A stretch of DNA of 55,118 nt, taken from IMG/VR virus record IMGVR_UViG_3300036925_000021, positions 1 through 55,118 of that record; one strand, given 5' to 3'. The notes beneath the pieces are model-generated. The model ran no database searches, was not told the DNA's origin, and worked only from the letters and a program-made list of their open reading frames with translations. Made by a program: the position numbers and the translations under genes. Each line of letters begins with the position of its first letter. The stretch's first letter is position 1. The DNA comes from a virus. Of this stretch, positions 35,292-54,998 are shown one piece after another.

Positions 35292-35801
35292 GTGCGCCGA
35301 TTCGCGAGGCTGGTCTGGAACCGCGACGAGTTTGACCACGGGCTGCTGCTGCTGGCGGTTGCCATCAGCTTGTGGCCGGGCTGGCTGGAGTTCGGGGTCG
35401 CCGCCCTGGTCGCGCTCGGCCAGCTCACCCTCTCCCTCGTCCCGTGGTCGCGCCAGCCGCTGCTCGTTGCCCGGGCCAGGGTCGCCCTTCCCGCCCTTGC
35501 CTCCGGCCTGTGGACCTTCATCTTCATCTCCGTACAACGGGCCGGCGCCGCGGCCGGACCCTGGGGGCTGGCCTGGGGGCGGGGTGTCGGGCCAGTTGAT
35601 ACCCCTCATCTACGGCGCAGCGATCACCGGCCTTCTCAGCACCTTCGGCTGGATCTTCGTGCGCTGGTTTCGGCGCGGCGAGGGCGAAGCGGCCTATCGC
35701 CAGGCCGAGCTCGCCGCGGCAAGCGCCTTCCGCCAAGAGCTGGAGGCCCACCTGGCGAAGACGTGGGGCCGCCTGGAGCGGGAGCAGTCGGAGCTGGATG
35801 A
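35292..35801 (+). CDS. holin-like membrane protein (3' end uncertain)
   Basis: GTG 35292 opens a protein with a charged start (RRFARLVWNRDEFDHG) and two or three membrane helices: LLLLAVAISLWPGWLEFGVA with AALVALGQLTLSLV, and LPALASGLWTFIFISVQ. It fits the place and profile of a holin, upstream of a spanin-like gene and endolysin. The last ~70 codons overlap the next gene in another frame and read as Arg/Pro-rich shadow sequence, so either the two genes overlap heavily or a frame change occurs near 35580. There is no Shine-Dalgarno. Confidence 0.6.
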   Translation: MRRFARLVWNRDEFDHGLLLLAVAISLWPGWLEFGVAALVALGQLTLSLVPWSRQPLLVARARVALPALASGLWTFIFISVQRAGAAAGPWGLAWGRGVGPVDTPHLRRSDHRPSQHLRLDLRALVSARRGRSGLSPGRARRGKRLPPRAGGPPGEDVGPPGAGAVGAG

Positions 35802-35916
35802 ATGCCGGCAACGAGTGGGCGAGGTGAGAAGCGCTTTGCGCCAGTGCGAGGCGGAAAAGGCGCGACTGGATGCCGAGATCGGCTTCCTGAACCAGGAGCT
35901 GGAGGCGCAGCGATGA
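35584..35916 (+). CDS. i-spanin-like protein (membrane anchor plus coiled coil), 110 aa
   Basis: I chose GTG 35584; TTG 35596 is also possible. One N-terminal membrane helix (LIPLIYGAAITGLLSTFGWI) is followed by a long charged coiled coil (LERE QSELDECRQRV type heptads to residue 110), the design of Rz-like inner-membrane spanins that help break the outer membrane of Gram-negative hosts. No outer-membrane partner is embedded in it. It lies between the holin-like gene and the endolysin, whose ATG overlaps its stop (ATGA). An endolysin-linked membrane scaffold is the alternative. Confidence 0.65.
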   Translation: MSGQLIPLIYGAAITGLLSTFGWIFVRWFRRGEGEAAYRQAELAAASAFRQELEAHLAKTWGRLEREQSELDECRQRVGEVRSALRQCEAEKARLDAEIGFLNQELEAQR

Positions 35917-36698
35917 CGAAGGCATCCGACAACGAAGCGTTCGCCAGCGGGGTGCAGGACTGGCTCCGCGCCGGCGGTTTCTACGCCGGCAAGGTCGACG
36001 GCTGGGCCGGCAGCGCAACCCGGGCGGCCTGGGATCTCGCGACGGGCGCGCCGCCCTTCGATCGGAGCCTGCGCCTGCCGCCCGACCAGTACATTCCAGG
36101 CCCGGAAACGAAGTCGTTGATCGTCCTCCACCACACCGCCGGCGCCAGCGCCGAGTCGACCTTCCGCTGGTGGGCGACGACGGCAGAGCGGATCGGCGTC
36201 GCCTTCATCGTGCGCCGCGATGGCGCGATCCTAGAGGTGATGCCCCCGGAGGCCTGGGCCTACCACCTCGGCCTGCGCGGGACCGGCGGCCGGGTGGACC
36301 GCCGCTCGATTGGAATCGAGATGGCCTGCGAGGGCGGGCTGATCCGCGGCCCGGCGACGCGCCCCGGACAGCGGGTGGGCTGGTACGCCTTCGGCGTCGT
36401 CGCGGAGCGGACGGAGTACCGCGGCCCGGTGGTGCCTGCCCCGCAGGGCTACCGCGGCTACGACGCCTTTGCGGCCTACACGCCGGCGCAGCTGGCTAGC
36501 GCTATCCACCTGGTGGACCACCTCTGCAACCGGTTCAGCATTCCGCGGCAGACCCCCGCCGACTTCGTTTTCGACGCCGCCTTGCTCGACTACGTCGGCG
36601 TCGTTGGCCATCATCATCTGCGCGCCGACAAGAGCGACCTCCATCCCGGCTTCGACTGGCCGGCGCTCCTGCAGGGTGCCAACCTGGAGGAGATGTGA
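35913..36698 (+). CDS. endolysin: peptidoglycan-binding plus N-acetylmuramoyl-L-alanine amidase
   Basis: This is a 261-residue enzyme. Residues 8-42 (EAFASGVQDWLRAGGFYAGK... GWAGSATRAAWDLATG) form a PG_binding_1 module. Residues 66-245 are an Amidase_2 domain with zinc ligands in LIVLHHTAG (H73/H74) and GVVGHHHLRADKSDLHPG (H233-H235, D242), and the substrate-side AWAYHLG. It cuts the bond between MurNAc and L-alanine in the wall. There is no signal peptide, so release depends on the holin. Start and stop overlap both neighbours. Confidence 0.9.
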   Translation: MTKASDNEAFASGVQDWLRAGGFYAGKVDGWAGSATRAAWDLATGAPPFDRSLRLPPDQYIPGPETKSLIVLHHTAGASAESTFRWWATTAERIGVAFIVRRDGAILEVMPPEAWAYHLGLRGTGGRVDRRSIGIEMACEGGLIRGPATRPGQRVGWYAFGVVAERTEYRGPVVPAPQGYRGYDAFAAYTPAQLASAIHLVDHLCNRFSIPRQTPADFVFDAALLDYVGVVGHHHLRADKSDLHPGFDWPALLQGANLEEM

Positions 36699-37678
36699 TG
36701 CCCTTCTTCCGCCCTACCGCCCTTGCGTTGGCCGAGATCTCCGCGGCCGAGTACTTCGACGATATCGGGGCCGCCCTGCGCAACACCAAGGCGGCTTTGG
36801 GTGAGTTCGATGTGGTCCACAGCAACCGCGGCAGCGAGTGCGAGTACTCGATCCTCCGTGTCGCCGGCGGCGGCCCCTTTGGCCCGGACCCCGGGCAGGT
36901 CCTCGTCTTCCGCGGAACGGAGCCGACCAACCTTTGCGACTGGATGACCGACGCCCGGATCTACCGACGCCGCTGGGCCGGCACCGGCCGGGTCCACCGC
37001 GGCTTTGCCGACGAGGTGGACGCGGAGCTCCCCCGCATCCGCGCGGCGCTGCGGCCGAACCTGCCGGTGTTCTCCACCGGCCACTCCAAGGGCGCCGGCG
37101 ACGCGACCTATGCGACCGCCTGGCAGCTACGGAGCGGCTACGAGGTGGCCGGGCTTTACACGTACGGCTCGCCCCGCGTCTTCAATCGCCGTGGTGCCGA
37201 AGCCCTGGACGCAGCGCTGGGGGATCGATTCTGGCGCGTCGTCAACAACAACGACATCGTGACGCGGGTGCCGGTAACGGCGATCTGGCGCGGCTACTGG
37301 CACGCCGGACGCCTTGCCTACATCGAGGCGGACGGTGCGCTCGTCTTCGAGCCGAGCCGCTGGCGGCGCTTCCGCGATCGGGTGCGCGGGAGGATGCAGG
37401 CGCTGCGCGGTGGCGAGCCGACCGTGGCGGAGGTGCCCGGCCTGCCGGGCAAGGTGGTCAAGCGGCTGGAGGCCGCGGGGCATGCGAAGCTGTCGCAGAT
37501 CCTGAGCGTCTCCGTCGCCGAACTGGCGGCCAGCGTGGTGGGGCTCGGCCCCGCCGGCGCCGCGGCGATCGCGGCCTGGGCCGTCCATCGCTCGCAGGGT
37601 TGGCATCTGGCCGCCGGCGCCTTCGATGGCACCGCGGACCACTCGATCACCCGCTACGTGGGTGCCCTGCGCTCCTAA
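36698..37678 (+). CDS. class-3 lipase with inserted helix-hairpin-helix domain
   Basis: This 326-residue alpha/beta hydrolase has oxyanion FRGTEP (72-76), nucleophile GHSKG (S130), acid NNNDIVTRVP (D186) and histidine DHSITRY (H315), a complete lipase_3 triad. Between the acid and the histidine, residues about 245-295 (VPGLPGKVVKRLEAAGHAKL... VVGLGPAGAAAIAAWA) form a helix-hairpin-helix domain like those at 17450 and 20564. It follows the endolysin with overlapping TGATG, so it probably acts in lysis on membrane or outer-envelope lipid, as LysB does for mycobacteriophages with another fold. No signal peptide is seen. Confidence 0.85.
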   Translation: MPFFRPTALALAEISAAEYFDDIGAALRNTKAALGEFDVVHSNRGSECEYSILRVAGGGPFGPDPGQVLVFRGTEPTNLCDWMTDARIYRRRWAGTGRVHRGFADEVDAELPRIRAALRPNLPVFSTGHSKGAGDATYATAWQLRSGYEVAGLYTYGSPRVFNRRGAEALDAALGDRFWRVVNNNDIVTRVPVTAIWRGYWHAGRLAYIEADGALVFEPSRWRRFRDRVRGRMQALRGGEPTVAEVPGLPGKVVKRLEAAGHAKLSQILSVSVAELAASVVGLGPAGAAAIAAWAVHRSQGWHLAAGAFDGTADHSITRYVGALRS

Positions 37679-37684
37679 AAAAAG

Positions 37685-37712
37685 CCCCCCGCCGCGGAGT
37701 GCGACGGGGGGG
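37685..37712 (-). terminator. intrinsic terminator of the minus-strand operon
   Basis: On the minus strand a CCCCCCG/CGGGGGG stem extended by CGC... GCG around ACTCC is followed by C and seven Ts (plus-strand 37677-37683). It is the best intrinsic terminator in the genome and ends the 48336-37755 transcript. The same hairpin may slow converging lysis transcripts. Confidence 0.88.
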
Positions 37713-37754: not shown

Positions 37755-38204
37755 CTAGGCGCCCGAGGTAAAGGTCGAGCTACCGCTGGTCGACCTGCAG
37801 CTGTCGCCGGTCGGATCGCTCGATGCCGAGCAGGTGCAGCGCGAGGCCTCCCACGTGATCCGCTGGGGCAGCGGGCTCAGAAACGTGCAGCTCACGGTCC
37901 CCGAGGCGTTGTCGGAATCCGCCGGCGTGCAGGTCCCCGAGCCGGTGAAGCGCCAGAAGGCCGCGGCCGTCCCCTCGGTGGGAAGGGAGTAGTTGGCGTC
38001 GCAGGTCACGGAGCCGTCCGCGTTGCTGACGCACCCGGCCGCCACGACCCGCGCGCCAACCGTCTGCGGCGCGGGGTTCGTGCACATCGGCACCTCCGTC
38101 GGGGAGTTGCCCCCCCGCACCTCGTCTCCGATTTGGCAGCCCCACACGCAAGCGGTGCAGAGCACGAGGGCGACCAGGGCCGCCCGGCTCAGAAGTCTGT
38201 TCAT
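37755..38204 (-). CDS. secreted or lipo-protein, Cys-rich, 149 aa
   Basis: ATG 38204 follows AAGGAGA. The N-terminus MNRLLSRAALVALVLCTACV is a signal sequence; LCTAC is close to a lipobox, so a lipoprotein is possible but not certain. The mature chain has about nine Cys and many Ser, Thr and Gly, with repeated-looking CTF/CT segments, as in disulfide-stabilised surface proteins. It is the last gene of the minus operon, facing the lysis block. If lipidated it could be the missing outer-membrane spanin partner, though it lacks the Pro-rich short form of known o-spanins. Confidence 0.72.
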   Translation of the reverse strand: MNRLLSRAALVALVLCTACVWGCQIGDEVRGGNSPTEVPMCTNPAPQTVGARVVAAGCVSNADGSVTCDANYSLPTEGTAAAFWRFTGSGTCTPADSDNASGTVSCTFLSPLPQRITWEASRCTCSASSDPTGDSCRSTSGSSTFTSGA

Positions 38205-38238
38205 CAGGGTGTCTCCTTCCATGGTTCGTTTTCGCCCC

Positions 38239-39000
38239 CTACCGGAGGGCGCGGTGGTCGTAGTACGCCTCGATGCGCAGGCGCGCGTCGCCGATGATCG
38301 GTGTCATCTGCGCTGCTGGCGCCCCGCCACGAGCGTAGCTCAGGAGGCGCGCCAGCGCGACGTCCACGGTGGCCAGAGTCTCCTGGCACGCCACGTCCTC
38401 CTCGACGATGGCCGGTGCCCCGAGGAGCGCGCGCGGCTCGGCAAGCGCCGCCTTGTCCTCCAACGGGGCACCGTCGAGGAGGGCTGTGGCGCGATCGTTG
38501 GCGACCCCCATCCGGGTGACGAGGCTCGGTGCGTATTGTCGCAGAGCCCCCATCAGGTCGGGTCGATCGGCGAGCGCCGGCGCGATCACCAGGTAGCCCC
38601 AGGTGCCGACCGTCTCCCCGCCTCGGTCCACCCAGCGGCGCCGGTCGCGCATCACATGCACGACATCCGGCTGGGCGCCGTCGCGCGGATCGATCTGCGA
38701 GGGAAAGGCGGTGACCAGGGTTCCGGCGGTGAGAGCGCGTCCCCGAGCTGCGGCGCCGGGAGGCCACCGCAGGATCACCGCGGGGTCGGATGCGGGGCGG
38801 GATACCAGGGACACGCAGAGCGCCCAGTCGCCCCCTTCGGGATGCGGCGCGGGCTCCATGACGGTGAAGCACCGGACGGCGCCCAGTTCGCCGACGATCG
38901 AGTGACCGGCGGCGCGGAGCCGCTCGAACAACTGCGCCTGCGCGGGCAGCGCGGCGATGGCGACGAGCAGCAGCATGCAGGAAAGCAACCTTCTCTTCAT
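38239..39000 (-). CDS. secreted protein, 253 aa
   Basis: AAAAGGAGG just before ATG 39000 fixes the start; an upstream in-frame GTG/ATG run is not supported. The signal peptide is MKRRLLSCMLLLVAIAALPA with cleavage near AQA. The mature 230 residues form a mixed fold (VRCFTVMEPAPHPEGGDWAL, TWGYLVIAPALADRPDLMGA, LATVDVALARLLSYARGGA). Only a few Cys are present, unlike its secreted neighbours. No enzyme signature is recognised. A periplasmic or external accessory protein is likely. Confidence 0.72.
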   Translation of the reverse strand: MKRRLLSCMLLLVAIAALPAQAQLFERLRAAGHSIVGELGAVRCFTVMEPAPHPEGGDWALCVSLVSRPASDPAVILRWPPGAAARGRALTAGTLVTAFPSQIDPRDGAQPDVVHVMRDRRRWVDRGGETVGTWGYLVIAPALADRPDLMGALRQYAPSLVTRMGVANDRATALLDGAPLEDKAALAEPRALLGAPAIVEEDVACQETLATVDVALARLLSYARGGAPAAQMTPIIGDARLRIEAYYDHRALR

Positions 39001-39031
39001 GGGGTGTTCCTCCTTTTCGATGGTTCGCGTG

Positions 39032-39039
39032 ATTCTACA
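39032..39039 (-). promoter_or_regulatory. possible extended -10 promoter tgTAGAAT
   Basis: On the minus strand TGTAGAAT precedes the secreted-protein gene (ATG 39000) by 31 bases. No -35 is seen, but the extended -10 form may suffice. Confidence 0.4.
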
Positions 39040-39046
39040 CCTGCGC

Positions 39047-39292
39047 CTAGTTGCGCATGGTAGACGGGATGGAGCGGCCCGTGGCCCGGGAGCGAAGGCC
39101 GGCATGGATGATCCGGCCATCGCTCCCCGGCGCCAGGAAGTACTCCGGCACCCACCTGGCCACCGCGTCGCCGAACAGCGGCAGGCTACGGCCCGTGGCG
39201 CCCGTGAGGGCTGGGGTCAGTGGATCATCCATGCCGCAGCGCGCGGCCCGAATCCGTGGCTTGCGGAAAAGCCAGACGAGGGCGGCGCGCAC
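39047..39292 (-). CDS. hypothetical protein, 81 aa
   Basis: It starts at a GTG overlapping the upstream gene's stop (TAGTG at 39294-39290). The basic N-terminus MRAALVWLFRKPRIRAARCG could sit on a membrane surface. The rest (GATGRSLPLFGDAVARWVPE, then IIHAGLRSRATGRSIPS) is a compact alpha/beta stretch with ATGRS twice. DNA inside it holds a 15-base inverted pair (39100-39114 and 39222-39236). No function is assigned. Confidence 0.5.
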   Translation of the reverse strand: MRAALVWLFRKPRIRAARCGMDDPLTPALTGATGRSLPLFGDAVARWVPEYFLAPGSDGRIIHAGLRSRATGRSIPSTMRN

Positions 39293-40200: not shown

Positions 40201-40959
40201 TTACGCCGCGGCGCTGCTTGCGGCCACGGCCGCGGCCGTGGCGGCCTTCCTCGGGGCGGCCTTCTTCGCGGCGGCCTTCTTCGCGGCGGCCTTCTTCGGG
40301 GCGGCCTTCTTCGCGGCGGCCTTCTTCGCGGCGGCCTTCTTCGGGGCGGCCTTCTTCGCGGCGGCCTTCTTCGGGGCGGCCTCGCTCATGAAGGTGAGGC
40401 AGCGAGCCTGCAGGGCCTTCGGGGGGGTCGGCATCGGCTTGCCCTGCCGGCTCCGCTTCGCCGGCCACACGGCGATCGAGGATCGCTTCGGCCGCTTGCC
40501 CCTGGGAAGCAGCTCGTTGATCGCGCGCACCCGCTCCTCGGTGCCCATGCCCACGGATGCCATCCATTGGCAAAGGCCGCCGACGTCGACGCCCTCGATC
40601 TCGAACGTGTTGTTGGGGCTGGGGTTGGTGGTCTCGGCCCCGCTGAGCTTCTTCTGTCGGGCGGTCTTCGTCTTCGTAGCCATGGTGAATCTCCCAATGT
40701 GTTCGGGCGTCACGAGCCAGAAGTCTGACTCCGTCCGCCCCTCGGTTTCCAACCAGTACGCCTCGCGGCGCACGATCGCGCCGCTTTCGATGTCCCTGAA
40801 GCCTGACACCCTTCCGCCATAGATCTCGGCGTGAGTGCCACGAATGAACCGCAGGCTGGCGCGCGCCGCGCCCTGCGGCTCCTCGATGAGAATCGAGCGA
40901 CCGTCCCGCGCCGGGGGGCGCGGTGCAAGCTCGTCCAGCTTCTTCTTCCTGCCGGTCAT
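40201..40959 (-). CDS. histone H1-like protein with N-terminal extension, 252 aa
   Basis: The ATG at 40959 overlaps the preceding stop. Residues 1-92 (RSILIEEPQGAARASLRFIR, GFRDIESGAIVRREAYWLET) look like a small beta domain. A second ATG at 40683 (MATKTKTARQKKLSGAE) has its own GGGAGA site, so a 160-residue short form is possible in the same frame. The later part has a globular stretch (FEIEGVDVGGLCQWMASVGM) and a tail of AAPKK/AAAKK repeats encoded by nine 15-base units, like bacterial histone-H1 (HU-tail or Hc1) proteins. DNA compaction or host nucleoid binding is expected. Confidence 0.75.
   Translation of the reverse strand: MTGRKKKLDELAPRPPARDGRSILIEEPQGAARASLRFIRGTHAEIYGGRVSGFRDIESGAIVRREAYWLETEGRTESDFWLVTPEHIGRFTMATKTKTARQKKLSGAETTNPSPNNTFEIEGVDVGGLCQWMASVGMGTEERVRAINELLPRGKRPKRSSIAVWPAKRSRQGKPMPTPPKALQARCLTFMSEAAPKKAAAKKAAPKKAAAKKAAAKKAAPKKAAAKKAAAKKAAPRKAATAAAVAASSAAA
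40246..40380 (-). repeat. nine tandem 15-bp units encoding AAPKK/AAAKK
   Basis: Units of TTCTTCG(G/C)GGCGGCC repeat from 40246 to 40380 on the plus strand, the first with one change. Read on the minus strand they give the Lys/Ala/Pro tail of the H1-like protein. Unit number is likely to vary by slippage. Confidence 0.95.
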
Positions 40960-41141
40960 CCGCGCGCGTCCCGCTTCGCGACGAGGGCGCGAAGAACTCT
41001 CAGCTCGTCGTCGTAGTCGGCGTCGCCCCCGCCCATCTCCTGAACCGCGTCGGCAAGCTTGCTCTCCAACGAGGCCAGCGCTTCGGTCGGGTGGAGATCG
41101 AGGACGATCTCGCCAAGTCCGATCCGCTCGAATCCTTGCAT
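40956..41141 (-). CDS. small acidic protein, first gene under the 41.2-kb promoter, 61 aa
   Basis: ATG 41141 follows CCCTGGAAAGGAGCCCACG, the start-associated motif. The chain is acidic (IGLGEIVLDLHPTEALASLE, MGGGDADYDDELRVLRALVA) and probably a helical hairpin. It shares ATGA with the H1-like gene, so the two are made together; an acidic partner or chaperone for the very basic protein is plausible. No family is recognised. Confidence 0.68.
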   Translation of the reverse strand: MQGFERIGLGEIVLDLHPTEALASLESKLADAVQEMGGGDADYDDELRVLRALVAKRDARG

Positions 41142-41147
41142 CGTGGG

Positions 41148-41160
41148 CTCCTTTCCAGGG
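41148..41160 (-). promoter_or_regulatory. start-associated motif (minus strand)
   Basis: CCCTGGAAAGGAG, read on the minus strand, forms the ribosome site of the gene starting at 41141. It lacks only the first C of the consensus. Confidence 0.75.
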
Positions 41161-41196
41161 AAGCAGTGGCGGGGACCATCCCCGCCCGGTACAACC

Positions 41197-41210
41197 ATTA
41201 TAAGTTATAA
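41197..41210 (-). promoter_or_regulatory. palindromic TATAAT promoter
   Basis: TTATAACTTATAAT on the minus strand ends with a perfect -10 (41202-41197). A leader hairpin GGCGGGGA/TCCCCGCC (41168-41186) and the start-associated motif (41160) follow; 36 bases separate -10 and motif. The promoter overlaps the stop codon of the upstream DUF6166 gene, so it gives a second, internal entry to the minus operon. Confidence 0.7.
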
Positions 41211-42038
41211 GGACGCCATCTGCAAACCCCTGCCCGCCCACTCCCGAACGCAGGCCTCGCATGCCCGCGTTGGGGGAACGCGCCGCCTGGTGATCGGCAC
41301 CTCCCCGAAGGGCAGGCGCGCGCCACACGCCGCGGTGATCGCGCCACCCGGCTGCTGCTGCCGGACGAGCCAATGGAATCGAGCCTCGGCCACATCTGCG
41401 CCATCCGCCCAGCCCCGCGCCCACCGGTTCCGCGGGCGGGCGTTGAACCAGGCGGCGATCTGCGAGGCCCTCAGCTCGGCCTCCCTGCCGATGAGTCGCG
41501 CGATGACGTCGTCCTTGAAGGCCTGGTGGTGCGCCAGGGCGAGATCGTCGCCAACGGCCTCCGCCAGGATGGCGAGCGCCAGTTGCGCCGGTCCGGAGCC
41601 GGCGTAGCCCATCTCGAAGCCGGTCGGACTGTGATCCATGAGATCCAGCCGGGGTGGCAGGGGCCGGCTCTCGCCGGCGCGGAGGACCTCGACATCGAGG
41701 CCGCCCGTCTCGCCGCGCACCATGAGGAAAATCACCTCGCCGTGCGGCTGGGGCGCCGCGACGGGCAAGGCCCGCTCCGCGGCCTGGGCGCGACGGTGCA
41801 TGCGGTTGGCTCGCTCGATCTGATCCATGAGAAGGTGCCGAAGGTAGATCAGCTCGTTTGACCCACCTCCCACCAGGACGGCGTCGACATCGCCGACCAA
41901 CTCGGCGAACGAGACGGCATCGCCCCTCCCTGCCAGCGCCTCGCGGAGCAGCTCTAGGCCCGTCGCTTGCGCCGCCCCCTCATCCTCCGCGGCGACGGCA
42001 ACGTAGGCACCTACACGATAGACGCGCCGGCCGCTCAC
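41205..42038 (-). CDS. DUF6166-domain protein with C-terminal Cys/His cluster, 277 aa
   Basis: GTG 42038 overlaps the ParB gene's stop (GTGA). Residues about 100-200 match DUF6166: RLDLMDHSPTGFEMGYAGSG and PAQLALAILAEAVGDD, then AFKDDVIARL. This domain is widespread in high-GC phages and plasmids and has no known function. Before it are a small beta domain (YRVGAYVAVAAEDE) and a coiled coil (LRHLLMDQIERANRMHRRAQ). The C-terminus adds CGARLPFGE and RACEACVREW, perhaps zinc. Its last codons carry the 41.2-kb promoter. Confidence 0.78.
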   Translation of the reverse strand: MSGRRVYRVGAYVAVAAEDEGAAQATGLELLREALAGRGDAVSFAELVGDVDAVLVGGGSNELIYLRHLLMDQIERANRMHRRAQAAERALPVAAPQPHGEVIFLMVRGETGGLDVEVLRAGESRPLPPRLDLMDHSPTGFEMGYAGSGPAQLALAILAEAVGDDLALAHHQAFKDDVIARLIGREAELRASQIAAWFNARPRNRWARGWADGADVAEARFHWLVRQQQPGGAITAACGARLPFGEVPITRRRVPPTRACEACVREWAGRGLQMASL

Positions 42039-43807
42039 GACGACCCATCCTTCGCCCCCCCCTTCGCCTTCTTCGCGGTGGCCTTCGCGCCCATCTTGGC
42101 CGCGGCCTTCTTCTTCTTCTTCGCCCTCGGCGTTCCGTCCTCGTTGAGCAACGCCCAGGACCTCGGGTCCGCCAGCTCGGCGAAGGCGCCCGCGCGGATC
42201 TCCTCGGCGTCGTCCGCCTTGCCCACCATGCCGGCGAGGGCGAGAGCCTCGGCGAGCTGCAGGTGGGTATCCACCCACGAGCCGTATTTCATTCGGGCGG
42301 CGAGCACGTATTGCAGGCGCACCCAAAGCTCAACCCGGAGGGCCAGCTCGTTGTCCGCGTAGAGGGTCCAGCGCGCCATCGCCGCGCTCGTTTTCTTCTT
42401 CTTGACGTGCGCTTTGAGCGTCTTCGGGTCGAGTGCTCCGTCGAGTGCTCCATTGCCATACAGAGCGTGGACATCGGCCGACGCCCGCTCCTCCTTGTGA
42501 GACGTTCCGATCGCGGCGACGAGACGGCAGAGGGCGTCCGCCGAAGGGAGGCAGCCATCATCCTGGATCCAGCGAAGGATCGCGCTCCAAAGGCGTTCAA
42601 CAGCCAGCTTCTCGCGGCGCCGGTTCAGCGCCGCCCGGCGCTCCGGCAGCGGCGTGGGCGCCCCCTTCGGCCGAGCTGCCTTGCCGCCGCCCCGCGCTGG
42701 TGGTGCGCACCAAGTGACCTTCCCCGGCTCCTGCGGGTCAAGGGCGGCGATCGCCCCGCGGGACCCCTTGCGAACCTTCTCCACTGCGTAGCGCTCGATC
42801 GTCCTGGCCCCCGCCGGCAGACCCTCCCCGCCCCCCTGATAGGCGACGACGACGTAGACGTTGTCCGCCCCGTGGTCGGCCACGAGCTGGCGATAGCGTC
42901 GCGCCAGGAACGCCTGGCGCTTTGCCTCGTAGCAGGGGGGCCGCAGGCACAGGTCTTTCGCGCCCTCGACCTCCCACAGGTGGGGCTGTTGCGACGTCCG
43001 GGCGGGGCAGTCGCTGCAGGCCCCAGCCTCCGGGACCAGCTCCGCGTCGTCGCGCCGCCAGGGAGCCCCATCCAGGGATCGCTGGACGCGCTGCGCGATG
43101 TAGCTGCGGAGCCGCGCGACGGTGGGTATGCCGTTCCACCACTGCTCGGAGACCTCCTCCAGGAGCCGCGCCTGGACGTCGGGTTCGAGGCGCGCGACGA
43201 GCTCCAGGTGGCCAACACCCCAGCTGGCCACCTGGCCATTCTCCTGCTCGGCCGCCTCCAGCCATGCCGGCACCAGGTCGTTGAGGGCCATCCGCCGCGC
43301 CACCCAGGACTCGCTCTTGCCGATCTCGGCGGAGACGGCGGCGACGTCGCCGCCCCGCTGCTCCATGAGCAACCTGACGGCACGGGCGGAGGGGATCGGT
43401 TCCAGCCCCTCGCGCTGTAGGTTCTCGATGACGGTGATCTCCAACGCCTGCGCGTCCGTCATCGCCTCGTGGACCATGGCGGGGATGCTGGTGCGACCCG
43501 CAAGGCGCGAGGCGCGGACGCGCCGCTCCCCGGCGACGAGGAGGTACCCCACCTTTGGGGCCGGCGCCCCCTTCGGCCGCGCCACCGCGCCGCCGGGGGC
43601 GGGGGCGGGGCGAACGACCACCGGCTCGATGACACCGCTCTGCGCGATGGAAACGGCCAGCTCCGCGAGGGCGGGATCATCCTCGCGGAAGCGCCGCGTC
43701 TGGTGCGGTGAGGGGGCGATTGCCGCGAGATCCAGGTGGGGGTCGAAGCGCGGCTCCGGCGAACCGCTGGTCGTCGTCGTCTTCGAGGGGGTCTTCTTCT
43801 TGGCCAT
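42035..43807 (-). CDS. ParB/KorB-like DNA-binding protein, 590 aa
   Basis: Residues about 24-130 form the ParB/Srx nuclease-like domain: LDLAAIAPSPHQTRRFREDD, GYLLVAGERRVRASRLAG and TVIENLQREGLEPI. An HTH follows (MEQRGGDVAAVSAEIGKSES, WVARRMALNDL), as in ParB and KorB. The long C-terminal part has a Cys pair cluster (GACSDCPARTSQQP, CLRPPCYE) and a Lys/Ala tail. No ParA is encoded, so plasmid-type partition is doubtful. Phage proteins of this kind can act as regulators or CTP-dependent DNA clamps. Two overlapping genes flank it in the minus operon. Confidence 0.85.
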   Translation of the reverse strand: MAKKKTPSKTTTTSGSPEPRFDPHLDLAAIAPSPHQTRRFREDDPALAELAVSIAQSGVIEPVVVRPAPAPGGAVARPKGAPAPKVGYLLVAGERRVRASRLAGRTSIPAMVHEAMTDAQALEITVIENLQREGLEPIPSARAVRLLMEQRGGDVAAVSAEIGKSESWVARRMALNDLVPAWLEAAEQENGQVASWGVGHLELVARLEPDVQARLLEEVSEQWWNGIPTVARLRSYIAQRVQRSLDGAPWRRDDAELVPEAGACSDCPARTSQQPHLWEVEGAKDLCLRPPCYEAKRQAFLARRYRQLVADHGADNVYVVVAYQGGGEGLPAGARTIERYAVEKVRKGSRGAIAALDPQEPGKVTWCAPPARGGGKAARPKGAPTPLPERRAALNRRREKLAVERLWSAILRWIQDDGCLPSADALCRLVAAIGTSHKEERASADVHALYGNGALDGALDPKTLKAHVKKKKTSAAMARWTLYADNELALRVELWVRLQYVLAARMKYGSWVDTHLQLAEALALAGMVGKADDAEEIRAGAFAELADPRSWALLNEDGTPRAKKKKKAAAKMGAKATAKKAKGGAKDGSS

Positions 43808-53538: not shown

Positions 53539-54405
53539 GTGAAGAAGCCCTGGCTGAAGTTTTACGTTCGGGACTGGATCGCTAATCCCAAGTTGTCGAA
53601 GGCGCCCTGGGCGCTGCGCGGGATCTGGTGCCACGTCCTATGCCTGCTCTGGATGGAGGAGGAGGCCGGCATCGTCCGGGAGGACCTGGCGACGCTGGCC
53701 CGCATGGTGGGTTGCCGCCGGCGGGAGCTAGCCGACCTTGCCGACCGACGCATCCTTAAGGGGACGGACGGGCCGGTGTTCGCCGATCCCTTCACGTACA
53801 AGCCGAAGCGCGGCCCCCTGGTGACGCTCATCGAGGCGCAGCCCGGCCCGCTCTGGTTCTCCTCCCGGATGGTGGTGGAGGCCCACCTCGCGGCCGTCGC
53901 GCGCCGGAGCGGCAAGAAGGGGCACCGCCTGAGCCCGCACGGCAAGGCGACACCCCGCGGGGTGGGCTCCGGGGTTGGGGCCGCCCACCCCGCGGCCCAG
54001 CCCGCGGACCACCCCGAGCCCCCATTATCATCAGAGGCTCAGAGTGCTATGTATCCTTCTACTGAACACCATCATCAACCGGACACCCCGCGGGGTGGGC
54101 CTGGGGGTGATGATGTCGAGGAGCTGCTGGCCGCGTACAAGGCACTCCCCATGACGCCGCAGCGCCTGGGCCGGGGCGACCGCGCGACAGCCGCGCGGCT
54201 GCTGGGCGTGGCGGGGCTGCAGGCGGCGCTCGACGGCCTGCTCGTCGGCGCCGCCCGGGCGCAGCGGGCGGGTAGCCGCGTCCGGAGCCTGCGATACTTT
54301 GAGGGCACCACCGAGGAGGTGGCGGCCGAGGAGCCGCTCGACGAGGCATACCGCCGACATCTACGCGCCGCCATCGGGGCGGCGGAAGGAGGCACGACAG
54401 AATGA
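53539..54405 (+). CDS. replication-initiator-like protein (winged-helix N-terminus), 288 aa
   Basis: GTG 53539. The start WLKFYVRDWIANPKLSKAPW and LCLLWMEEEAGIVREDLATL, then ARMVGCRRRELADLADRRIL, is the pattern of phage replication initiators with an N-terminal winged helix (DUF1376-like or O-like). The centre, residues about 135-195, is a low-complexity linker whose DNA holds palindromes and an A/T-rich stretch, much as lambda O carries its origin. The C-terminal helix domain (VEELLAAYKALPMTPQRLGR) may bind a helicase or loader. It ends overlapping the ParB-fold gene (ATGA). Confidence 0.7.
   Translation: MKKPWLKFYVRDWIANPKLSKAPWALRGIWCHVLCLLWMEEEAGIVREDLATLARMVGCRRRELADLADRRILKGTDGPVFADPFTYKPKRGPLVTLIEAQPGPLWFSSRMVVEAHLAAVARRSGKKGHRLSPHGKATPRGVGSGVGAAHPAAQPADHPEPPLSSEAQSAMYPSTEHHHQPDTPRGGPGGDDVEELLAAYKALPMTPQRLGRGDRATAARLLGVAGLQAALDGLLVGAARAQRAGSRVRSLRYFEGTTEEVAAEEPLDEAYRRHLRAAIGAAEGGTTE
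53951..54097. other. candidate replication origin inside the initiator gene
   Basis: CACCCCGCGGGGTG, a perfect 14-base palindrome, occurs at 53951-53964 and 54084-54097 within a 19-base identical context, and a partial copy lies at 53986. Between them is an A/T-rich island (54022-54080, including CATTATCATCAGAGG and GCTATGTATCC) that stands out in this GC-rich genome. Repeats flanking an A/T stretch inside an initiator gene match the layout of lambda ori. No initiator binding can be shown from sequence. Confidence 0.45.
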
Positions 54406-54998
54406 GGACGAAGCTGTGGAGAGTCGAGGACCTGAGGGAGCCCAGCTACAACCCGCGCACCATGACGGACGGGCAGCGCGCGCAGCTCCAGGCGTCGCTG
54501 GCCGAGTTCGGGGTGGTCGTGCCCATCGTCGTGAACACCCACCCGGGGCGAGAGGGGGTGGTCGTCGGCGGCAATCAGCGCGTCGCGGCCCTCCGCGAGG
54601 CGGGCGAGGCGCGAGTGCCGGCGGTCGAGGTGGATCTAGCCCCGGAGCGGGAGCGCGCCCTCTGCCTCCGCCTGAACCGCAACACCGGCGAGTGGGACCA
54701 CGAAAAGCTCCAGGCCGCCTTCAGCAACGACGAGCTCCTCGCCGTTGGCTTCGAGGGCTGGGAGCTGGGGATCATTCTGCCCGCGGATGAGGACCCCCTC
54801 AGCCACGACGTCGACGCTGAGGCGGGAATTCACTCAACGACCGACTATGCCGAGCCGCGGATGGCGGTGCTGGCGGCGCGGCTGGATGAGCTGCGCGCTG
54901 CCTTCACGCGCGTCGAGCTAAGCAAAGGCAACCTGCCGTGGAACCAAGAGACCTACCCCTTCTACCCGCCGAACGTGTATGTGTATTGCTGGCGCTAG
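54402..54998 (+). CDS. ParB/Srx-fold protein, 198 aa
   Basis: It starts at ATG 54402 overlapping the previous stop. Residues 5-120 form a ParB-like nuclease fold: VEDLREPSYNPRTMTDGQRA, ASLAEFGVVVPIVVNTHPGR, VVVGGNQRVAALREAGEARV and RLNRNTGEWDHEKL. It lacks the HTH and C-terminal dimer domain of partition proteins. Many phages and mobile elements have such short forms beside methylase or replication genes. The final ~60 residues are helical. The stop lies in the terminal overlap, just before the hairpin and the small-terminase candidate. Confidence 0.8.
   Translation: MRTKLWRVEDLREPSYNPRTMTDGQRAQLQASLAEFGVVVPIVVNTHPGREGVVVGGNQRVAALREAGEARVPAVEVDLAPERERALCLRLNRNTGEWDHEKLQAAFSNDELLAVGFEGWELGIILPADEDPLSHDVDAEAGIHSTTDYAEPRMAVLAARLDELRAAFTRVELSKGNLPWNQETYPFYPPNVYVYCWR

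Follow-up and report, generated by a model that had tools for sequence, protein, structure and literature searches.

Lipolytic lysis enzymes other than mycobacteriophage LysB have been little studied. The LysB gene is located downstream of lysA in mycobacteriophage (PMC6116114), and in LysB of phage D29 a domain between the catalytic Asp and His forms the acyl-binding site (PMC7022511). A Pseudomonas syringae phage carries a GDSL-like lipase (part24) within its lysis cassette (PMC12173070). In a limited literature search, no account of a class-3 lipase belonging to a lysis module was found. The fungal class-3 lipases of Rhizomucor miehei and Thermomyces lanuginosus share the alpha/beta hydrolase fold, the Ser-Asp-His order, and the GXSXG motif with the phage protein described here; in contrast, they are secreted and have no helix-hairpin-helix (HhH) insert.

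The phage protein is encoded on an IMG/VR virus contig with a G+C content of 70%, and "the window" refers to the whole stretch of DNA that was analysed (55,118 nucleotides). The locus contained a plausible lysis lipase with a real domain insertion, and its features were as follows.

35292-35801, plus strand: holin candidate ORF with two hydrophobic segments; it overlaps the next gene, and its true end is uncertain.
35584-35916, plus strand: i-spanin- or holin-like protein; it has a single transmembrane segment and a charged tail that is probably a coiled coil, and its start is uncertain.
35913-36698, plus strand: Amidase_2 endolysin of 261 aa, with a weak PG_binding_1 match at the N-terminus.
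36698-37678, plus strand: class-3 lipase gene, 326 aa, in which a signal peptide was not recognised.
36698-37417, plus strand: lipase core, residues 1-240, aligned with 44 phage homologues.
37079-37093, plus strand: nucleophile motif GHSKG, with S130; GHSLG in the phage relatives inspected.
37253-37255, plus strand: catalytic acid D186 in NNNDIV, invariant in the alignment.
37418-37621, plus strand: inserted domain with a predicted RadA/Rad51-type (HhH)2 fold, residues 241-308, with hairpins PGLPG and GLGP.
37637-37645, plus strand: D314-H315-S316, with the catalytic histidine H315; D314 and H315 are invariant.
37685-37711, minus strand: terminator-like hairpin and T run just past the lipase stop, serving convergent minus-strand genes.

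The lysis operon was tightly packed, and the lipase gene was its final gene. Specifically, the 35584-35916 ORF, which matched phrog_2658 (E 0.004) and whose transmembrane segment was called from hydropathy, overlapped the start of the amidase gene at 35913, and the lipase ATG sat in the amidase stop codon (TGATG at 36696-36700), a one-base overlap that bore out the proposed coupling of the gene to the endolysin. The sequence GGAGGAG was located immediately 5' of the lipase ATG. Tail genes were found to the left of the operon, and convergent minus-strand genes were found to the right, beyond the terminator-like hairpin. No Rfam match was observed close to the lipase locus, and a megablast search of the 12 kb surrounding the lipase gene against phage records returned no match.

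Two ORFs at 37755-39120 on the minus strand, convergent with the lipase gene, had N-termini that were lipoprotein-like (ALVLCTACVWGC) and secretion-signal-like. They matched no family in profile searches with Pfam and PHROGs, and judging from their sequences they are possibly envelope proteins. Further along the minus strand of the window, an ORF at 40201-41424 ended in a long KKAAAKKAAPKKAA tail that resembled histone H1-type tails, and an ORF at 42035-43807 encoded a ParB-like protein according to PHROG matches. A second ParB-like start (LREPSYNPRTM), judged by eye, was located at 54402-54998 on the plus strand.

We inspected the 36 same-strand genes located directly upstream of the lipase gene in non-redundant phage relatives. 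Ten of the 36 matched the Rz-like spanin family phrog_812, about 3 more were assigned to other Rz-like spanin families by reading the sequences, and two others looked holin-like by eye; about two-thirds were not recognised as lysis genes. The lysis role gained support because the phage relatives often directly followed Rz-like spanin genes, and these neighbours suggested that class-3 lipases are recurrent members of phage lysis modules, located next to spanins in aquatic phages. Placement of the lipase in a lysis block was thus backed both by the amidase overlap and by the Rz-like spanin adjacency in phage relatives. The original prediction had also proposed that such a lipase points to an additional lipid barrier in the envelope of the host. 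The need for this barrier was unsupported, and the spanin adjacency in relatives argued against it, since recurrence beside spanins means that a special host lipid barrier is not required.

The same neighbourhoods bear on the idea that the protein is a late effector, which remodels host lipids or blocks superinfection and adjoins the endolysin gene by chance. Many relatives adjoin non-lysis genes (methyltransferase-like genes, for example), and cyanophage P-SSM2-type phages have a lipase gene as well; however, the one-base overlap with the amidase stop codon and the spanin adjacency in relatives count against it, and we consider this idea unlikely.

Other gene arrangements were noted among the relatives. 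In L071, L072, L099, and L108, the gene upstream of the lipase gene encoded a membrane protein that looked like mechanosensitive-channel (MscS-like) sequences by eye (ISALLLLVITLWFKDFATKIAKG...GDTVILDGQDALIVKIG). In a Gallionellaceae contig (L278, 5011-8655), consecutive genes encoded an amidase, a class-3 lipase, and a protein that looked patatin-like by eye, with a protein of 983 aa after them; the amidase was related to the window's endolysin by tblastn, and this amidase-lipase pairing was outside any obvious phage. In a conjugative Vibrio plasmid (L006, 1108-2172), a class-3 lipase gene was located near a gene annotated as a tape measure protein.

The lipase core matched Pfam family Lipase_3 over residues 68-193 (E 1.1e-17; 64.7 bits versus a gathering score of 22) and PHROG 21992 (phrog_21992, "esterase/lipase"; E 2.4e-19), and no LysB or cutinase family was among the Pfam and PHROGs matches. 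Homologues were gathered from phage and plasmid records, viral contigs, and genomes. In alignment A3 (45 proteins), S130, D186, D314, H315, and Y320 were invariant, as were R72-G73-T74 in the oxyanion segment RGTEP, which was conserved in the 45 sequences. The same five residues were likewise invariant in alignments with bacterial homologues. Thus, the complete class-3 triad that had been proposed (S130, D186, and H315) was borne out by conservation.

An AF2 model built with the 45-protein alignment had a pLDDT above 90 across most of the core. Foldseek matched this model to the Rhizomucor and Thermomyces lipases (E 2e-9), and VIA matched it to fungal class-3 lipases (Z about 22-23, rmsd about 3, residues 1-323 aligned). 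In a solved-structure profile search, the S130 and D186 regions aligned with Rhizomucor lipase, and the alignment ended before the histidine. With a Lipase_3 score above the gathering score, a GXSXG motif with a Ser-Asp-His triad, and a class-3 alpha/beta-hydrolase fold in the predicted model, the protein had what is expected of a Lipase_3 member, and its class-3 lipase fold was predicted with confidence. The lipases of PHROG 21992 and of mostly aquatic phages (L010-L108) were about 32-38% identical to it; they shared its triad and its NNND and FDG..DHS..Y signatures and were often encoded beside Rz-like spanins. They differed in having no insert, a D-to-H spacing of 58-69, and GHSLG rather than GHSKG.

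In the GHSKG motif, K131 stands where the inspected phage relatives have Leu directly after the nucleophile. This might be taken as a sign that the protein has lost catalysis and is a lipase-fold binder kept for its HhH module; EDS1-type proteins do reuse the class-3 fold (cf. the EDS1/PAD4 lipase-like domains). However, the triad and the oxyanion segment were wholly intact. In addition, GHSKG is the usual nucleophile motif of Mbeg1-like proteins, a family that this lipase matched weakly (E 0.11), so the motif need not imply lost activity. A catalytically dead lipase seems very unlikely to us.

The distance between the catalytic acid and the histidine set this lipase apart. The D-to-H spacing was 129 in this lipase versus 57-80 in the relatives measured (58-69 in viral relatives and 57-80 in genome relatives); 179 relatives were fetched (99 viral and 80 bacterial), and a few truncated or divergent ones gave no spacing. 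The spacing of 129 arose because about 68 residues (241-308) were inserted right before the catalytic-His loop. The insert was flanked by RDRVRGRMQALRGG on the left and by GAFDGTADHS on the right, and the equivalents in relatives, KDRWRGRARALAKG and then FDGIFDHS, were separated by at most 1-2 residues in alignment A3. The GC3 of the insert was 0.93 versus 0.88, indicating that the gene's coding signature was kept, which makes a frameshift or a non-coding insertion unlikely. The spacing and the alignment thus confirmed that an insert lies between the acid and the histidine. Its presence at residues 245-295, as first proposed, was upheld, and its exact extent was not, as the alignment gave slightly wider bounds of about 241-308.

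As in LysB of phages D29 and Ms6, a lipolytic serine hydrolase gene was located downstream of an endolysin gene, and a domain was located between the Asp and the His. The position of the insert is a striking parallel to that of the LysB domain, though the family differs: LysB is cutinase-like rather than Lipase_3, it acts on mycolyl-arabinogalactan, and its linker is described as an acyl-binding site and not as an HhH domain. The P. syringae phage lipase likewise shares the lysis-cassette location and an extra non-catalytic domain with this lipase; it differs in being a GDSL hydrolase whose extra carbohydrate-binding domain is not inserted. The shared topological position between Asp and His (PMC7022511), together with a hydropathy peak at residues 265-296, is consistent with an insert that serves as an acyl-binding or membrane-docking cap like the LysB linker, with its hydrophobic second half towards lipid. 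A compact HhH domain, as predicted, would instead bury those hydrophobic residues as its core, and we regard such a cap as possible but doubtful.

Profile searches with the insert returned DUF3701 (E 0.011) and HHH_5 (E 0.098) from Pfam and RadA (E 0.084) from NCBIfam. The HHH_5 match (13.6 bits) fell below the gathering score of 27, and the HhH assignment was therefore made by fold, without filing the insert as a Pfam HHH_5 member. None of nine shuffled sequences matched DUF3701 or HHH_5, and the sole other match was an unrelated Patatin. The insert was also folded alone (residues 237-307) as a single-sequence model. The five models varied widely, with mean pLDDT values of 83.6, 81.9, 70.8, 54.1, and 49.2, and the best model (83.6) contained helices at 251-259, 265-269, 273-279, and 284-305. 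Foldseek matched the insert model to N-terminal domains of RadA/Rad51 and to HhH domains of Y-family polymerases, with TM scores mostly of 0.65-0.75, rmsd values of about 1.4-1.5, and E values of only 0.01-0.4, and VIA matched it to AF1548 and NusA (acidic-repeat domain) at Z 8.7-10.

The predicted model contained two helix-hairpin-helix units in a RadA-type arrangement (TM 0.67-0.75). Because the sequence motif (PGLPG and GLGP), the profiles, and the fold agreed, HhH was the best call, and the models supported an (HhH)2 domain resembling the N-terminal part of RadA/Rad51. The predicted fold (TM 0.67-0.75) was consequently what sustained the original prediction of an HhH insert, the profile evidence being weak. 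Modelling recovered both the class-3 fold and, in the separately folded insert, the HhH fold; it did not place the insert in the full-length AF2 model, where the pLDDT was below 50 over much of the insert, and the location of the insert relative to the active site was therefore inferred from topology only. The RadA/Rad51 N-terminal (HhH)2 domain (Pfam HHH_5) and the NusA acidic repeat share the predicted fold at TM 0.67-0.75; in contrast to the insert, they are parts of DNA-repair or transcription proteins and are not inserted in hydrolases.

PASTA was also suggested for the insert, by phmmer, which matched PknB PASTA chains (E 0.3-1.3 for single repeats and 0.0014 over the whole multi-repeat protein), and would make the insert a cell-wall-binding repeat rather than HhH. 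It was rejected since the insert model was all-helical and matched RadA/Rad51; Pfam, moreover, returned HHH_5 and DUF3701 and no PASTA. We consider a PASTA-like repeat highly improbable.

The insert shares its predicted fold with the HhH domains of RadA/Rad51 and of Y-family polymerases, its first hairpin carries K/R residues (PGLPGKVVKRL), and it contains 5 K/R versus 3 E. These properties would suit a nucleic-acid-binding module through which lysis-spilled or virion DNA holds the lipase, or activates it by displacing the catalytic-His loop. However, the second hairpin (GLGPAGAAAI; GLGPAGAAAIAAW) has no basic residue, which makes DNA binding appear less likely from the sequence, and the context is envelope lysis. 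Domains of the Rad51-N and NusA-AR2 type bind proteins too, which also counts against a nucleic-acid module. Taken together, we consider such a module quite unlikely.

The HhH graft in a lysis lipase was apparently a one-off. The insert was found in none of the 179 fetched relatives (99 viral and 80 bacterial), and searches for the same architecture by DNA geometry in IMG/VR and about 85,000 genomes yielded no second lipase with the insert. A pattern scan of IMG/VR for NNND followed 117-137 codons on by DHxxxxY found no insert-bearing lipase, a similar scan of the genome collection found nothing, and scans of three more length ranges in IMG/VR found only normally spaced lipases. Other insert-bearing copies may exist, since the pattern scans demanded AAC as the first Asn codon plus a fixed length range. 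The insert alone had no match in phage records, a hand-made HhH consensus had none in viral contigs, a direct search of viral contigs for close relatives of the lipase found none, and a literature search for a lipase with an HhH insertion found nothing relevant.

We put roughly even weight on the reading that the protein is an active class-3 serine lipase or phospholipase that acts at lysis and whose HhH insert serves for docking or as a cap. The lysis operon would yield the lipase last, along with the amidase, and, because it has no recognisable signal peptide, the lipase would exit the cytoplasm with the amidase via the holin lesion. By hydrolysing lipids of the envelope, it would weaken the inner and/or outer membrane and complete lysis. 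The (HhH)2 domain interrupts the loop before the catalytic histidine and would sit at the active-site rim. There it would most likely serve as a docking or cap domain, whether for acyl chains, an envelope component, or another protein, rather than bind DNA. A more elaborate version, in which a bound partner (a protein, or nucleic acid freed at lysis) moves the catalytic-His loop and thereby confines membrane lipid hydrolysis to the onset of lysis, strikes us as improbable.

The suggested recurrence of class-3 lipases beside spanins in aquatic phages makes their possible role in outer-membrane disruption directly testable. The RadA-type graft by the catalytic histidine, in turn, is a natural experiment in which a hydrolase tolerates, and is perhaps controlled by, a domain inserted at the rim.
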